Of a DNA stretch of 64,000 nt, positions 15,001 to 60,118 are shown piece after piece. The notes beneath the pieces were generated by a model. That model saw nothing but the letters and a program-made list of their open reading frames with translations. It was not told where the DNA came from and searched no databases. The translations under genes were made by a program, and so were the position numbers. This DNA comes from Ignavibacteriales bacterium. Its GTDB lineage: Bacteria > Bacteroidota > Ignavibacteria > Ignavibacteriales > Melioribacteraceae. Every line of letters starts with the position of its first letter. The first letter of the stretch is position 1. The stretch is taken from positions 1,178,001 to 1,242,000 of the forward strand of contig JAPLFF010000007.1 in NCBI GenBank assembly GCA_026390775.1, written 5' to 3'.

Positions 15001-15241
15001 CGGTAGAACAAGACTCCGCCCGATTCTTATGACAACATTGGCAACCGTTTTAGGCTTGATACCTCTTGCTTTAGGTATGGGTGGAGAAAAATCTCAATCA
15101 CCACTTGCCATTGCAGTTATTGGTGGTCTAACTGTCTCTACAATTTTAACATTATTATTTGTTCCAACTCTTTATACAATCTTTGAAGAGAGATTTAGCA
15201 AAAAAAAGAAAAATATAAATGAAGAATACTCAATTGAATAA
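12098..15241 (+). CDS. RND efflux pump permease (HAE1/AcrB type)
   Basis: At 1047 residues this is the full length of a hydrophobe/amphiphile RND pump. It opens with WLTRFALKYPITTFMVAIAVF (first helix in part), has two large periplasmic loops (about 35-335 and 560-855) and twelve helices in the pattern 1+5, 1+5. The proton-relay acid pair is present in helix four (LVDDSIVELE, about residues 402-411). It is the motor of the tripartite efflux system encoded with the adaptor and TolC genes. The TolC gene begins 23 bases before its stop codon. Substrate cannot be read from sequence. Confidence 0.95.
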   Translation: MWLTRFALKYPITTFMVAIAVFVLGFVSLNQLPIDMLPNIQIPVVSVITYNNGAGPTDMEQTVTVPIERVVSSTNNVNYVQSSTREGQSSIRVYFNWDASTDVGLIDVIQKVNRILNFLPSAASQPLVLRFDITNIPVCTIALNGDLDQRALYDLAYNVIEPQLEHIPGVAFAQVTGGKIREIHIKVDRNRIDALNLSLQQVLEAMSASNLIVPSGDLKTGVFDYSLKTESEFNVVEPMGNVVVKTQNSISVRIRDVAYVEDSYQEQTEVIRNNGKEGVVLRIQKTSGANTVQVVNAIVKALTQLRDVPPSVKASLGTDQSLYIKQSISGLFQEAILGALLATLVILIFLRNSKSAVIIFLAIPLSIFVTFIFFRFSGTTLNIMTFGGLALGIGRLVDDSIVELEVITRHYKTMKADGKVKMQATLDAALEVASPIFISTLTTVIVFLPVIFLTGIAKLLFLPLVITITVALFSSFFVSRTVTPLMCYNYLHAEREVDLNSKKLSHRIQNYFKNLLDKIDTFYQNTLTKSLKHKRFVIFGVIGFAIFSFLLFKFVGTEFFPDTDESQFSISVKLPVGTRIEETEKFIERIESIIRSNVPEAKTVISDIGVPSAKSGSSFGGNSGGHAANISVSLIAPGERDRTVFDVVKAIRPKLMNLPGAQIFITTGGFLKFLLNFGSSAPIDVIISGQDFDQANKLSQQIYDIVKSTNGATDVQISRELNLPELNVSIDRDKAGALGVSVSQISNTITTAISGSVASVFTDPATGNQYNILVRLSEDYRNKIDDIKELSVQSTQGQLIKLSNLVKVVLVKSPIQIDRKYQERIVEITGNVTGRDLGSVSKDINDKLANVQIPSGFVVTVSGNVEQQNKTFGDLGLALILAIILVYMVMASQFQSLVDPFIIMFTVPLGMIGVVWALFLTDTTLSVTSFEGVIVMIGIVVSNGILLVDYTNKLRKTGMGLHEAVIKGGRTRLRPILMTTLATVLGLIPLALGMGGEKSQSPLAIAVIGGLTVSTILTLLFVPTLYTIFEERFSKKKKNINEEYSIE

Positions 15242-16508
15242 ATACTATTTATTGCCAGTTACCTTTTTATTTATTACTAACATTGCTGTTGCACAGCAGG
15301 ATACATTAACAATTGAAAAGTGCATTGACCTTGCTTTAAAAAATAATCCACAGATAAAGATTGCAGAAAGTAATTATGAACTTTCCTCTGCGAATTTGAC
15401 GCTTACAAGATCAACATTATTTCCACAGGTATCTTTTAACACGGGATGGAATAGAAACGGCGGTAATTTTTTCCAAGGACCAACAGCAAGAGAGGCTACG
15501 TATGAAAATTATTCTTACGGTTTTCAATTGCAGCAGCTTGTTTTCGATTTCGACAAATCGTATTCGCGTGTTTCAGGAACTTCGGATTTAAAAAGCGCTT
15601 CCGAACAGGATTTATTTTCGTCAAAACAAACCCTCATTTTAAATACTTACATTGCTTACTTTACTTATTTACAAGCTGATAGAATAAATAATGTTAGTCT
15701 GGAATCTTTGAGGCAAGCCCAAGAGCATCTTAGGCAAGCGCAAAGTTTTTATGATGTTGGGAAGAAACCCCAATTTGATGTGCTTAAAGCTAAAACCGAT
15801 GAAGCTAATGCAAAGGTTAACCTGATAACATCACAGAACAATATTATAGTAAGCGGACTTCAATTAGAAAATATACTTAATACAAAATTCGGTAATAATG
15901 TTCATCTAAAAGATAATTTGGGAATTACAAAAGACACAGTTAAAATTCAGAGTGCGCTTGCTTTGGCATGGGAAAATCGTCCTGAATTTATCGGTGCAAA
16001 GCTTAGAGTTGATGCTAATAAATCATTCTTAACTTCAGCATGGACAGCAAATCTTCCTTCAATTAATCTTACAGGCGGTTATAACTGGAGAACATTTTCT
16101 TTAGATCAGAATTTTTTAAATTCATGGAATCTCGGCGTTACTTTATCATTACCTCTTTTCCAGGGCTTTGCTTTGGATGCAGGAATTGATCAAGCAAGGG
16201 CAAATTTTAAAAATGCGGAAGCAACATTCGATTTTATTCAACAGAATATTAACCTCGATGTTCAACAGCAATACACAAATTTAAGGCTTGCAGTTGCTAA
16301 AATTGACGCGACGAAATCATTAGTAAGCCAAGCGGAAGAAACACTTAAAATTGCCGAAGGAAGATACAAGGAAGAAGTAGGCAACCCGATAGAAATAACA
16401 GATGCACGCGTTACATTGCTCAATGCACAGATTCTGTATATACAGGCTTTGTACGACTACCAGGTTTCTTACGTTCGCTTGCAAAAAGCAATCGGAATAC
16501 TTAAATAA
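15219..16508 (+). CDS. TolC family outer-membrane efflux channel
   Basis: The 429-residue protein has a signal peptide (about residues 1-25, ending AVAQQ) and two TolC repeats: LTIEKCIDLALKNNPQIKIAE opens the first, and VQSALALAWENRPEF-type sequence opens the second near residue 245. Long amphipathic helices (for example 310-420) and short strands make the outer-membrane channel. The ATG lies inside the end of the pump gene (23-base overlap), so translation is coupled and no separate ribosome binding site is needed. It completes the RND operon. Confidence 0.93.
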   Translation: MKNTQLNKYYLLPVTFLFITNIAVAQQDTLTIEKCIDLALKNNPQIKIAESNYELSSANLTLTRSTLFPQVSFNTGWNRNGGNFFQGPTAREATYENYSYGFQLQQLVFDFDKSYSRVSGTSDLKSASEQDLFSSKQTLILNTYIAYFTYLQADRINNVSLESLRQAQEHLRQAQSFYDVGKKPQFDVLKAKTDEANAKVNLITSQNNIIVSGLQLENILNTKFGNNVHLKDNLGITKDTVKIQSALALAWENRPEFIGAKLRVDANKSFLTSAWTANLPSINLTGGYNWRTFSLDQNFLNSWNLGVTLSLPLFQGFALDAGIDQARANFKNAEATFDFIQQNINLDVQQQYTNLRLAVAKIDATKSLVSQAEETLKIAEGRYKEEVGNPIEITDARVTLLNAQILYIQALYDYQVSYVRLQKAIGILK

Positions 16509-16557: not shown

Positions 16558-16818
16558 TTGTTCGGATTCGAAATGATCTTAAATTTAGAAGAAGAGAATG
16601 TTTCGGTTGCAAAAGAAAATCTTGATCTTGCATTTGAGGAATTAAAAATCGGTACCTTTTCCCCGCTTGAATTCCGCGAAGTACAAAAGAGTTACACTGC
16701 AGCACAAAGCAGACTTTCAACCGCTCGTTACGCCGCGAAGATGAATGAAAAAAATTTGCTGTTGAAGAAAGTTTGTCAGGCCCATGTTGTGCGTTCGTGC
16801 TTCTTTTTAGCTAATTAG
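16558..16818 (+). pseudogene. Remnant of a second TolC family gene (C-terminal part)
   Basis: The reading frame after an ill-defined start gives ILNLEEENVSVAKENLDLAF, EELKIGTFSPLEFREVQKSY and LSTARYAAKMNEKNLLLKK. This is the last two helices of a TolC family protein, of a different type from the intact TolC just upstream. The N-terminal four fifths are absent: only 49 bases separate it from the intact gene. After LLLKK the sequence turns into a non-homologous Cys-containing tail. It therefore looks like a decayed duplicate or a scar of a replaced efflux gene. Confidence 0.7.
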
Positions 16819-17779: not shown

Positions 17780-18241
17780 TCACTTGCTCATAATTATGAG
17801 CATTGTTTTTTCACCTTTTTGAGATAACATAACTAAATATCCTTCTATTCCCTTCCACGTTATCATTGTTAATCCAAGCATACTATTTTCAGAATAATTA
17901 TTCCCATATTTTTTTGTGAGGGCTACTTTTGATATGTCAAATAATTTTTGTGCGTCGTCTTCTTTTTCTTTCCCAGTCGTGATGACTTTCTCATTTTGTT
18001 TATCATCTTTTGTAAACATATAACCGACTTTTATTGATATCGGTTCTAGCCAATCGTAATACATCAACGCTTTGTAATTCATAATTTCTTTTTCTTCAAT
18101 TTTTTTATCAACAAGTTTTTCTCTAATAGTGGTGGTTGTTTGATCAAAAGGATCATTCAAGAAGATTTCTATCGAAAATTATGCGAGTAGTTTTGTGAAA
18201 AAAACGAGCATTAAAACCATAAATATTTTCAATAATTTCAT
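17780..18241 (-). pseudogene. Small secreted protein gene interrupted by an in-frame stop after its signal peptide
   Basis: Starting from the ATG at 18239-18241 (GGAGATCAA upstream), the frame encodes a 20-residue signal peptide MKLLKIFMVLMLVFFTKLLA, then a TAA. The same frame continues FSIEIFLNDPFDQTTTTIREK for 133 more codons to a natural stop at 17780. The downstream part alone could only start at a TTG without a ribosome binding site. The mature region (KALMYYDWLEPISIKVGYMF, TMITWKGIEGYLVMLSQKGE) is not recognised. The gene is best described as disrupted by a single nonsense codon. A sequencing error or stop readthrough are alternatives. Confidence 0.7.
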
Positions 18242-18269
18242 TTGATCTCCTTTGTTCAAGACAGCTAAC

Positions 18270-18326
18270 GACGTTGCAACTAAAGCGCCGCCCATAGCAG
18301 CAATGCCAGTTTGAAAAACCAACGTC
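18270..18326 (-). other. attC-like hairpin site (C) upstream of the interrupted secreted-protein gene
   Basis: A 57-base element with perfect 7-base terminal inverted repeats (GACGTTG and CAACGTC) and an internal GCGCCGCCC block. It closely resembles the element at 18738-18790 in length, ends and centre. It lies about 30 bases upstream of a gene start carrying AACAAAGGAG. Confidence 0.5.
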
Positions 18327-18379
18327 AATAATTATTTATAAAAATGATTTCGGTACATCGTTTTAATTGCGTAACTATT

Positions 18380-18688
18380 TTATTTACATCTCTCAAGTGC
18401 TTTAACTGACGCGCCAATAATAATTCCGACAAACATCATTCCGACGATTGCCAAGACTATTGCAGTAACTCTTCCCAGTGTTCCGCTCGGCGTCATATCG
18501 CCATAGCCGATAGTAAAGGAAGTAGTAAAAGCAGTGTAGAGGCAATCGCCAAAAGAGCCGTTACTGTTTTTTAATCCCTCAATATGAAAAACGAAGGCCC
18601 CGCCGCATATTAGTATTAAATAAAAGATAAGAAGATTCCATGCGGCAGAAAGAAGTGAAAAAAATTCTTTTGGAAATGATCTTTTCAT
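18380..18688 (-). CDS. Two-helix potassium channel
   Basis: The 102-residue protein has one membrane helix (about 12-34), a pore helix, the K+ selectivity filter TIGYGD (about residues 60-65) and a second helix (about 73-95). This is the minimal KcsA-like channel, which forms tetramers in the inner membrane. No regulatory RCK domain is attached and none is encoded next to it. GGAGAAATAAC precedes the ATG. It sits alone between two attC-like sites, as a cassette gene would. Confidence 0.92.
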   Translation of the reverse strand: MKRSFPKEFFSLLSAAWNLLIFYLILICGGAFVFHIEGLKNSNGSFGDCLYTAFTTSFTIGYGDMTPSGTLGRVTAIVLAIVGMMFVGIIIGASVKALERCK

Positions 18689-18737
18689 ATTTGTTATTTC
18701 TCCTTTGTTTAATTTTAAGATAGAGCAGATTTATAGC

Positions 18738-18790
18738 GGTGTTGCGCCTAACGCGCCGCCCAAAACAACAATGACGGTTTTGCCAACGCC
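18738..18790 (-). other. attC-like hairpin site (B) upstream of the K+ channel gene
   Basis: A 53-base element with near-perfect terminal inverted repeats (GGTGTTG and CAACGCC). It shares GCGCCGCCC, CAATG and CCAACG blocks with the element at 18270-18326. Read on the minus strand it contains GCGTTAGGC, the consensus 3' end of integron attC sites. The rest of the 272-base gap down to 18960 holds nothing else I recognise. Confidence 0.5.
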
Positions 18791-18960
18791 ACTTTATATT
18801 CAACTTAAACTTTAAAACTTACTTTATCAATAAAGGAAAAATCATATAGATTCCGGATAACTCCCGATAAACCGGGACTTTCTGGAATGACAATTGAATA
18901 TCTAAGCAAGATCAAGAGTCTTGACTAAACACTCTCAAATTATTTTTGTTTAAAGAAGTA

Positions 18961-19326
18961 TTATGTACTTTTTGTGGAGCGCAACGAAACAAAAGTCCAT
19001 GTTGCAGCAACTGCATCAATAGCTGCAAATAACAATATCGCCGAACCCACTTTGCCCAGCACAAACATTAACAGCATGAAACAAGCTGCGTAATATCGAA
19101 GCGGAACCGTCCACTTGATGAATCCTTCGATCTTTTTTCGTACGGCAATAATATAGTAGGCACCAATAATTGAAGCTAGCATTCCTACCATACGAATCCA
19201 TATATCGTCTCCGGCGCTCAGCCCGAATATGCTCAGAATAAAGTGAGGCATAATCATGAAACCGAGCCCGACTAAGAAAACCAGATACAAACCGAAAACG
19301 AAAACACTCAAACCAGCTTTACTCAT
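18961..19326 (-). CDS. Small four-helix membrane protein, unknown function
   Basis: The 121-residue protein has four hydrophobic helices (about 5-28, 41-60, 74-94, 97-115) and a conserved-looking GDDIWIRMVGMLASIIGAYY segment between the first two. No catalytic or transport motif is seen. GAGGAGAAC lies five bases upstream of the ATG. It shares the cassette-like boundary sequence with the two genes downstream of it. Confidence 0.7.
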   Translation of the reverse strand: MSKAGLSVFVFGLYLVFLVGLGFMIMPHFILSIFGLSAGDDIWIRMVGMLASIIGAYYIIAVRKKIEGFIKWTVPLRYYAACFMLLMFVLGKVGSAILLFAAIDAVAATWTFVSLRSTKST

Positions 19327-19364
19327 TGTAGTTCTCCTCTTTTGTTAAACAATACGCGGGCGTG

Positions 19365-19385
19365 TAACGGAGTTGCGTCTAACGC
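19365..19385 (-). other. attC-like half site (A) upstream of the four-helix membrane protein gene
   Basis: The 21-base block TAACG-NN-GTTGC-NN-CTAACGC also occurs, with two and three changes, at 18734-18754 and 18266-18286. Unlike those, it is not followed by the hairpin arm, so only one side of the element is present here. Confidence 0.45.
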
Positions 19386-59686: not shown

Positions 59687-60092
59687 AATGATTCGTGTTG
59701 AGCAGTTGCCCCCGATTATTTTCGGGGGAGGAAAGTCCGAACTCCGCAGAACGAAGTGCCGGGTAACTCCCGGGGTGCTGATTTATTCGGTACACGGAAA
59801 GTGCCACAGAAAAAATACTTCCTGTTGATGGCGGGTTACGCCCACCTTCGGCAGGTAAAGGTGAAAAGGCAGGGTAAGAGCCTACCGCTTCAATAGTAAT
59901 ATTGAAGGCAGGGCAAACCCCACTTGGTGCAAGGTCAAGCAGAAGGTTTCCCGAGTTTTTCTCGGGACAAGGTTGTTCGCCTTGAACTCCTTCGGGTAGA
60001 CCGCTGGATCCCGAAAGTAATTTCGGGACAAGATAAATGACTGCTGCCCGGCTTTACCGGGAACAGAATTCGGCTTATAGACACGAATCATT
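59687..60092 (+). ncRNA. rnpB: RNase P RNA (bacterial type A)
   Basis: All the universal elements are present in order: GAGGAAAGTCCGAACTCC near 59731, the GGCAGGGTAAGAGCCTACCG region, CAAACCCCACTTGGTGCAAG, ATAAATGACTGC and the 3' ACAGAATTCGGCTTATAG. The P1 helix closes the molecule: AATGATTCGTGT at 59687-59698 pairs perfectly with ACACGAATCATT at 60081-60092. It is the catalytic part of the enzyme that trims tRNA 5' ends. The RecJ start codon lies 27 bases beyond P1 with no terminator between. Confidence 0.97.
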
Positions 60093-60118
60093 TGGTGTTC
60101 TCCTTCACGGAAGACGCC

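Follow-up and report, generated by a model that had tools for sequence, protein, structure and literature searches.

A 21-base block recurs in front of three consecutive small genes within the stretch of DNA analysed here (64 kb, referred to throughout as the window), and the question raised by this locus is whether the genes make up a gene-cassette array with recombination sites between them, as was proposed in a preliminary description of the sequence. The recurrence upstream of the three genes is real: exactly three matches to TAACGNNGTTGCNNCTAACGC with at most three mismatches were found in the window, within a span of 1.1 kb and against an expectation of 0.03 (shuffle mean), and three copies were reached in none of 100 shuffles. 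The block copies are

19365–19385, 0 mismatches to TAACGNNGTTGCNNCTAACGC
18734–18754, 1 mismatch to TAACGNNGTTGCNNCTAACGC
18266–18286, 1 mismatch to TAACGNNGTTGCNNCTAACGC

and the genes are

18961–19326, minus strand, gene 1, a 121-aa multi-spanning membrane protein with no Pfam family
18380–18688, minus strand, gene 2, a 102-aa K+ channel-type protein (Ion_trans_2, 58.6 bits)
17780–18241, minus strand, gene 3, encoding a protein that is secreted or anchored in the membrane; counted from the ATG at 18241, codon 21 is an in-frame TAA

These had been presented as three single-gene units with similar ribosome-binding leaders, which is accurate except that the gene at 17780 is interrupted by the TAA. 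No Rfam match was obtained at the locus; a bacterial class A RNase P RNA (275 bits) is located at 59690–60093 of the window.

In two of the block copies the similarity extends further (77% identity over 47 bases, 18266–18312 versus 18734–18780). The length of this shared element had been given as 53–57 bases, but it is really ~85 bases, since similarity to attC sites elsewhere reaches 18818 in the copy at 18734 and ~18350 in the copy at 18266, and it constitutes the right-hand part of such a site. A genome search located the block elsewhere in the same genome, and in the 190 bases of upstream sequence read at the better copies a long element was recognized that starts with TAACAAGCGCCTCAAC and ends with GTTAGGCGCAACGCCGTTA. 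The 21-base block is the right-hand end (L'–R') of this dispersed family of ~190-base attC sites, and its earlier assignment to the end of integron attC sites was correct, as it matches the 3' ends of the intact copies.

An attC site is built from R'' (TAAC), L'' with one extra base, L' and R' (GTTA). In the intact copies of the own genome these are R'' (CTAAC or ATAAC), L'' plus the extra base (GCGCCTCAAC; L'' is read as GCGCCT[C]AAC in the intact element), a long central region, L' (GTTAGGCGC) and R' (GTTA). With a covariance model in which 13 full-length copies were aligned and the R and L arms paired, ~31 family copies (E < 1e-3) were found in the own genome, singly or in small groups of two or three and ~25 of them full-length, and copies were found in 43 of the 57 genomes searched. 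The AAC...GTT triplets are present in R''/R', with TAAC/GTTA in most family copies, and the extrahelical base of L'' (CT[C]AA versus TTAG) is present in nearly all. Some attC sites carry hairpin sequences of 15–20 bases (e.g. TCTGCCTACGGCAGACAAG) inserted at similar positions of the central region (L060, G000:C3:636008-636231; L072, G000:C7:179244-179470).

Covariation of the arms was analysed in 124 sites (116 distinct) from the own genome and its relatives, and complementary, covarying R''/R' and L''/L' boxes were found for the family. The 14 arm pairs were of a standard type in 88.8% of cells versus 77.6 ± 0.6 in shuffles (0 of 500), with 209 double-change cells, and the covariation score was 0.255 versus 0.097, with no shuffle reaching 0.255; the alignment is biased towards the structure of the model to which it was fitted, and the shuffles ignore relatedness. 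When the partner was slid by 1–3 columns the score was at most 0.071. A MAFFT alignment of 13 sites gave the same direction more weakly, the covariation being reached by 10 and the pair types by 2 of 500 shuffles. Unconstrained folding joined the arms in a minority of the intact sites only; the attC assignment was therefore based on covariation and context and not on folding energy.

Measured against these intact sites, the window contains the following features:

18734–18818, minus strand, attC remnant 1: retains the right-hand side, in which L' reads GTTAGGCGC and R' is degenerate (GCTATAA), and lacks the R''–L'' left arm
18265–18350, minus strand, attC remnant 2: retains the right-hand side, L' reading CTTTAGTTGC and R' reading GTTAGCT, and likewise lacks the left arm
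19362–19385, minus strand, attC 3'-end remnant: reduced to L'–R' (GCGTTAGACGCAACTCCGTTACAC); the ATG of gene 1 (18961–19326) follows 36 bases on
18847–18896, minus strand, palindromic TGTCATTCC...CCGGAATCTA (also given as TGTCATTCC...GGAATCTA): at the expected place of the left half of remnant 1; single copy in the window

Application of an attC covariance model to the region, as had been advised, gave significant scores for two of the three copies, remnant 1 (53.9 bits, E 9e-10, aligned over 18731–18896) and remnant 2 (37.3 bits, E 2e-6, aligned over 18263–18420), and 8.9 bits for the third, of which 24 bases are kept and only 19 are matched by BLAST. Most arm pairs of remnant 1 are non-standard and its left-arm pairs fail; 62 nt of it match an intact attC of a relative (L083 in G038) at 90% identity. 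Remnant 2, which directly adjoins the sequence 3' of the K+ channel gene, shares 83% identity over 78 nt with an attC in an array of G001 (L148). The left arm proposed for remnant 2 by the model was rejected: it is situated inside the K+ channel coding sequence, has neither TAAC nor the extra base, and as a complement does not exceed chance (27 of 300 shuffles were as good, in a single-site test of little power that fails to separate most intact sites from chance). A direct search of 17.7–19.5 kb retrieved no R''–L'' sequence, and the left arm is absent from three of three window copies. The terminal inverted repeats reported for the short element are not the functional arms: in the family the true arms are separated by ~190 bases, and in the window the left one is missing. 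Pieces of 76 bases folded without a consistent hairpin because they comprise only the right part of the site. The lack of attC-like folding, named beforehand as evidence against an integron, applies to the window copies but not to the family, with its strong arm covariation. The window sites are not intact, and recombination at them is unlikely.

The integron integrase IntI folds single-stranded attC, cuts between G and TT of the R' box and inserts or removes cassettes of one gene each. A cassette consists of the gene and the attC behind it, so that an attC comes to lie directly in front of the next gene. Matches to TIGR02249 (integrase_gron) over the curated cut-off were obtained in 25 of 57 genomes and, at that E-value, in 0 of 14 control genomes. 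No such match over the cut-off was obtained in the own genome, a draft assembly of eight contigs, whose recombinases comprise XerC/D-sized proteins and tyrosine recombinases of 347–372 aa. These are 22–35% identical to the IntI proteins of the relatives over long alignments, with short conserved-end pieces at up to 61%; the relatives' IntI proteins are mostly 58–86% identical to each other and carry the segment LPxALxxKYPNAxKEFGWQYxFP. No complete integron, with an IntI that has the additional domain, was found in the window or in the own draft assembly. The earlier statement that no integrase is visible in the window was right and extends to the assembly. Absence of an integrase from the genome had been put forward as an argument against the integron interpretation; it holds for this assembly, but the relatives have IntI beside the same sites, in arrays of the attC family:

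G055:C1, intI at 79834–80769, then attC at 81625, 83174, 84708, 86089 and 87727
G055:C16, G052:C111, G007:C92, G002:C158, G046:C141 and G005:C64, further intI-adjoining attC arrays

The arrays beside intI have about one gene per interval, with a median of 8 nt from stop codon to attC and 27 nt from attC to the next start (54 sites, ORFs chosen automatically), and the spacing of genes and attC sites in the relatives is that of textbook cassettes. The window genes begin 22, 36 and ~45 nt after their remnants. In most of the relatives examined (L143, L154, L144, L145, L146, L151 and L153) intI precedes the array and shares the strand of the cassettes, the layout described as a 'reverse integron' for Treponema; G018:C1 differs, with the array upstream of intI. 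In the own genome (G000) attC sites were found at contig ends (C2:113, C4:356, C4:89283 and C7:941), and further sites are clustered near them (C4:2557, C4:3635 and C4:88081). Given this clustering the breaks in the assembly may be due to a cassette array, and with eight contigs and attC sites at their ends an integrase may lie in an assembly gap.

The three blocks are interpreted, with a probability of about 0.87, as remnants of integron attC sites in a degraded former cassette region without an integrase. The locus is a decayed piece of an already known gene-capture system, because intact copies of its sites occur elsewhere in the genome and beside the integron integrases of relatives. A row of cassettes containing the three genes would once have stood here; the R''–L'' arms of all three sites would have been lost and the sites inactivated, gene 3 would have gained its in-frame stop, and intI is absent from the assembly. 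What would be left is a static row of three 'half attC–gene' units, presumably expressed as ordinary genes. Of the small cassette array with recombination sites originally proposed, the attC origin was upheld, and the array and its sites are historical only, since the window sites are truncated.

Conservation of gene order in relatives, the remaining argument raised against a cassette origin, was not observed, the three genes occurring together in 0 of 56 relatives searched. Relatives of gene 3 were found in 11 other genomes, and the homologue in G025 (56% identity) has an attC site ~20 nt after the matched end. The homologue of gene 1 (36% identity) occurs in only one other genome searched and has no attC. 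Proteins 96% identical to the K+ channel are encoded in two Melioribacter genomes (JAHEZQ010000038.1 and VEPI01000062.1), at loci in which no attC was found and which are not cassette loci. Its neighbours in both are a 483-aa protein that we take to be an SSS-like symporter and a 177-aa protein that is presumably a DUF1697 member; the DNA of these neighbour genes had no match in the own genome. Only gene 3 is therefore independently supported as a former cassette, as the K+ channel is a non-cassette gene in the relatives and gene 1 lacks an attC-linked homologue. A clean empty site was not found: relatives share the RND/TolC genes (window 13.8–16.5 kb) but not the other side of the locus. After the complete TolC-like gene at 15219–16508, the window has an 86-aa match to OEP (outer membrane efflux protein) at 16558–16818, which is probably a gene remnant.

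The K+ channel could alternatively be a resident gene in the course of acquiring attC, in which case the locus would be a snapshot of cassette genesis rather than only of decay. DNA homology to the Melioribacter loci begins 3 bases upstream of the ATG and runs on for ~55 bases beyond the stop codon (window 18691–18325), and its end overlaps the start of remnant 2 in an AT-rich stretch; the gene and part of its own 3' flank are thus joined via this stretch to a half attC, and another half site stands in front. Similarity of the 5' leader of the gene to those of the relatives was equalled in 271 of 1000 and 22 of 1000 shuffles. This reading is considered unlikely, and less likely than decay.

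Selection for the conserved 3' part as a promoter or translation leader, independent of any integron, would fit the position of all three copies 22–45 nt before a start codon and the retention of only the 3' part in the window; it appears distinctly improbable, as the intact sites are conserved across ~190 bases with covarying arms and the spacing is the same as that of cassettes. Very improbable, too, is a mobile CALIN in the window, with intact, active attC sites on which an integrase from elsewhere could work. The L'/R' boxes, the GTT cut site and the gene spacing are retained and the genome has ~25 full-length attC sites, against which stand the left arms missing in three of three window copies and the chance level of the complement to remnant 2 in the K+ channel coding sequence (27 of 300 shuffles, by the weak test noted above). 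A MITE-like dispersed repeat inserted before genes, as the ~30 copies scattered singly or in groups of two or three might suggest, is highly improbable in view of the IntI-adjoining arrays with about one gene per interval, the fixed orientation relative to the genes and the covarying arms with their extra base on L''.

As a degraded cassette region, the locus illustrates integron decay in Ignavibacteria: close relatives keep complete integrons, and this genome has scattered intact attC sites, one row of genes with half sites, and no detected integrase. The K+ channel occurs both in and out of an attC context and offers a comparison of one gene with attC sequence attached and without it; the way in which a gene first turns into a cassette has been named as an open question (PMC8618304).

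Among known systems, complete integrons have been noted in Chlorobi/Ignavibacteriae (PMC9024848). The sedentary chromosomal integrons of this broad group are matched by the relatives, with their IntI and arrays of long attC sites, whereas the window has neither IntI nor an intact attC. A CALIN as defined by IntegronFinder resembles the window in having attC-derived sites between consecutive genes and no integrase nearby or in the assembly, but at least two recognizable attC sites are needed for a call (PMC9024848); the window has two significant partial matches to the attC model within 0.5 kb, both truncated, and its one-armed sites are probably not callable. In Treponema phagedenis attC sites and cassettes remain after loss of intI and relatives keep complete integrons (PMC3607928). 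The window is likewise a case of attC sequence without intI whose relatives have complete integrons, with the difference that here the attC sites of the locus are themselves truncated and intact ones are found elsewhere in the genome.
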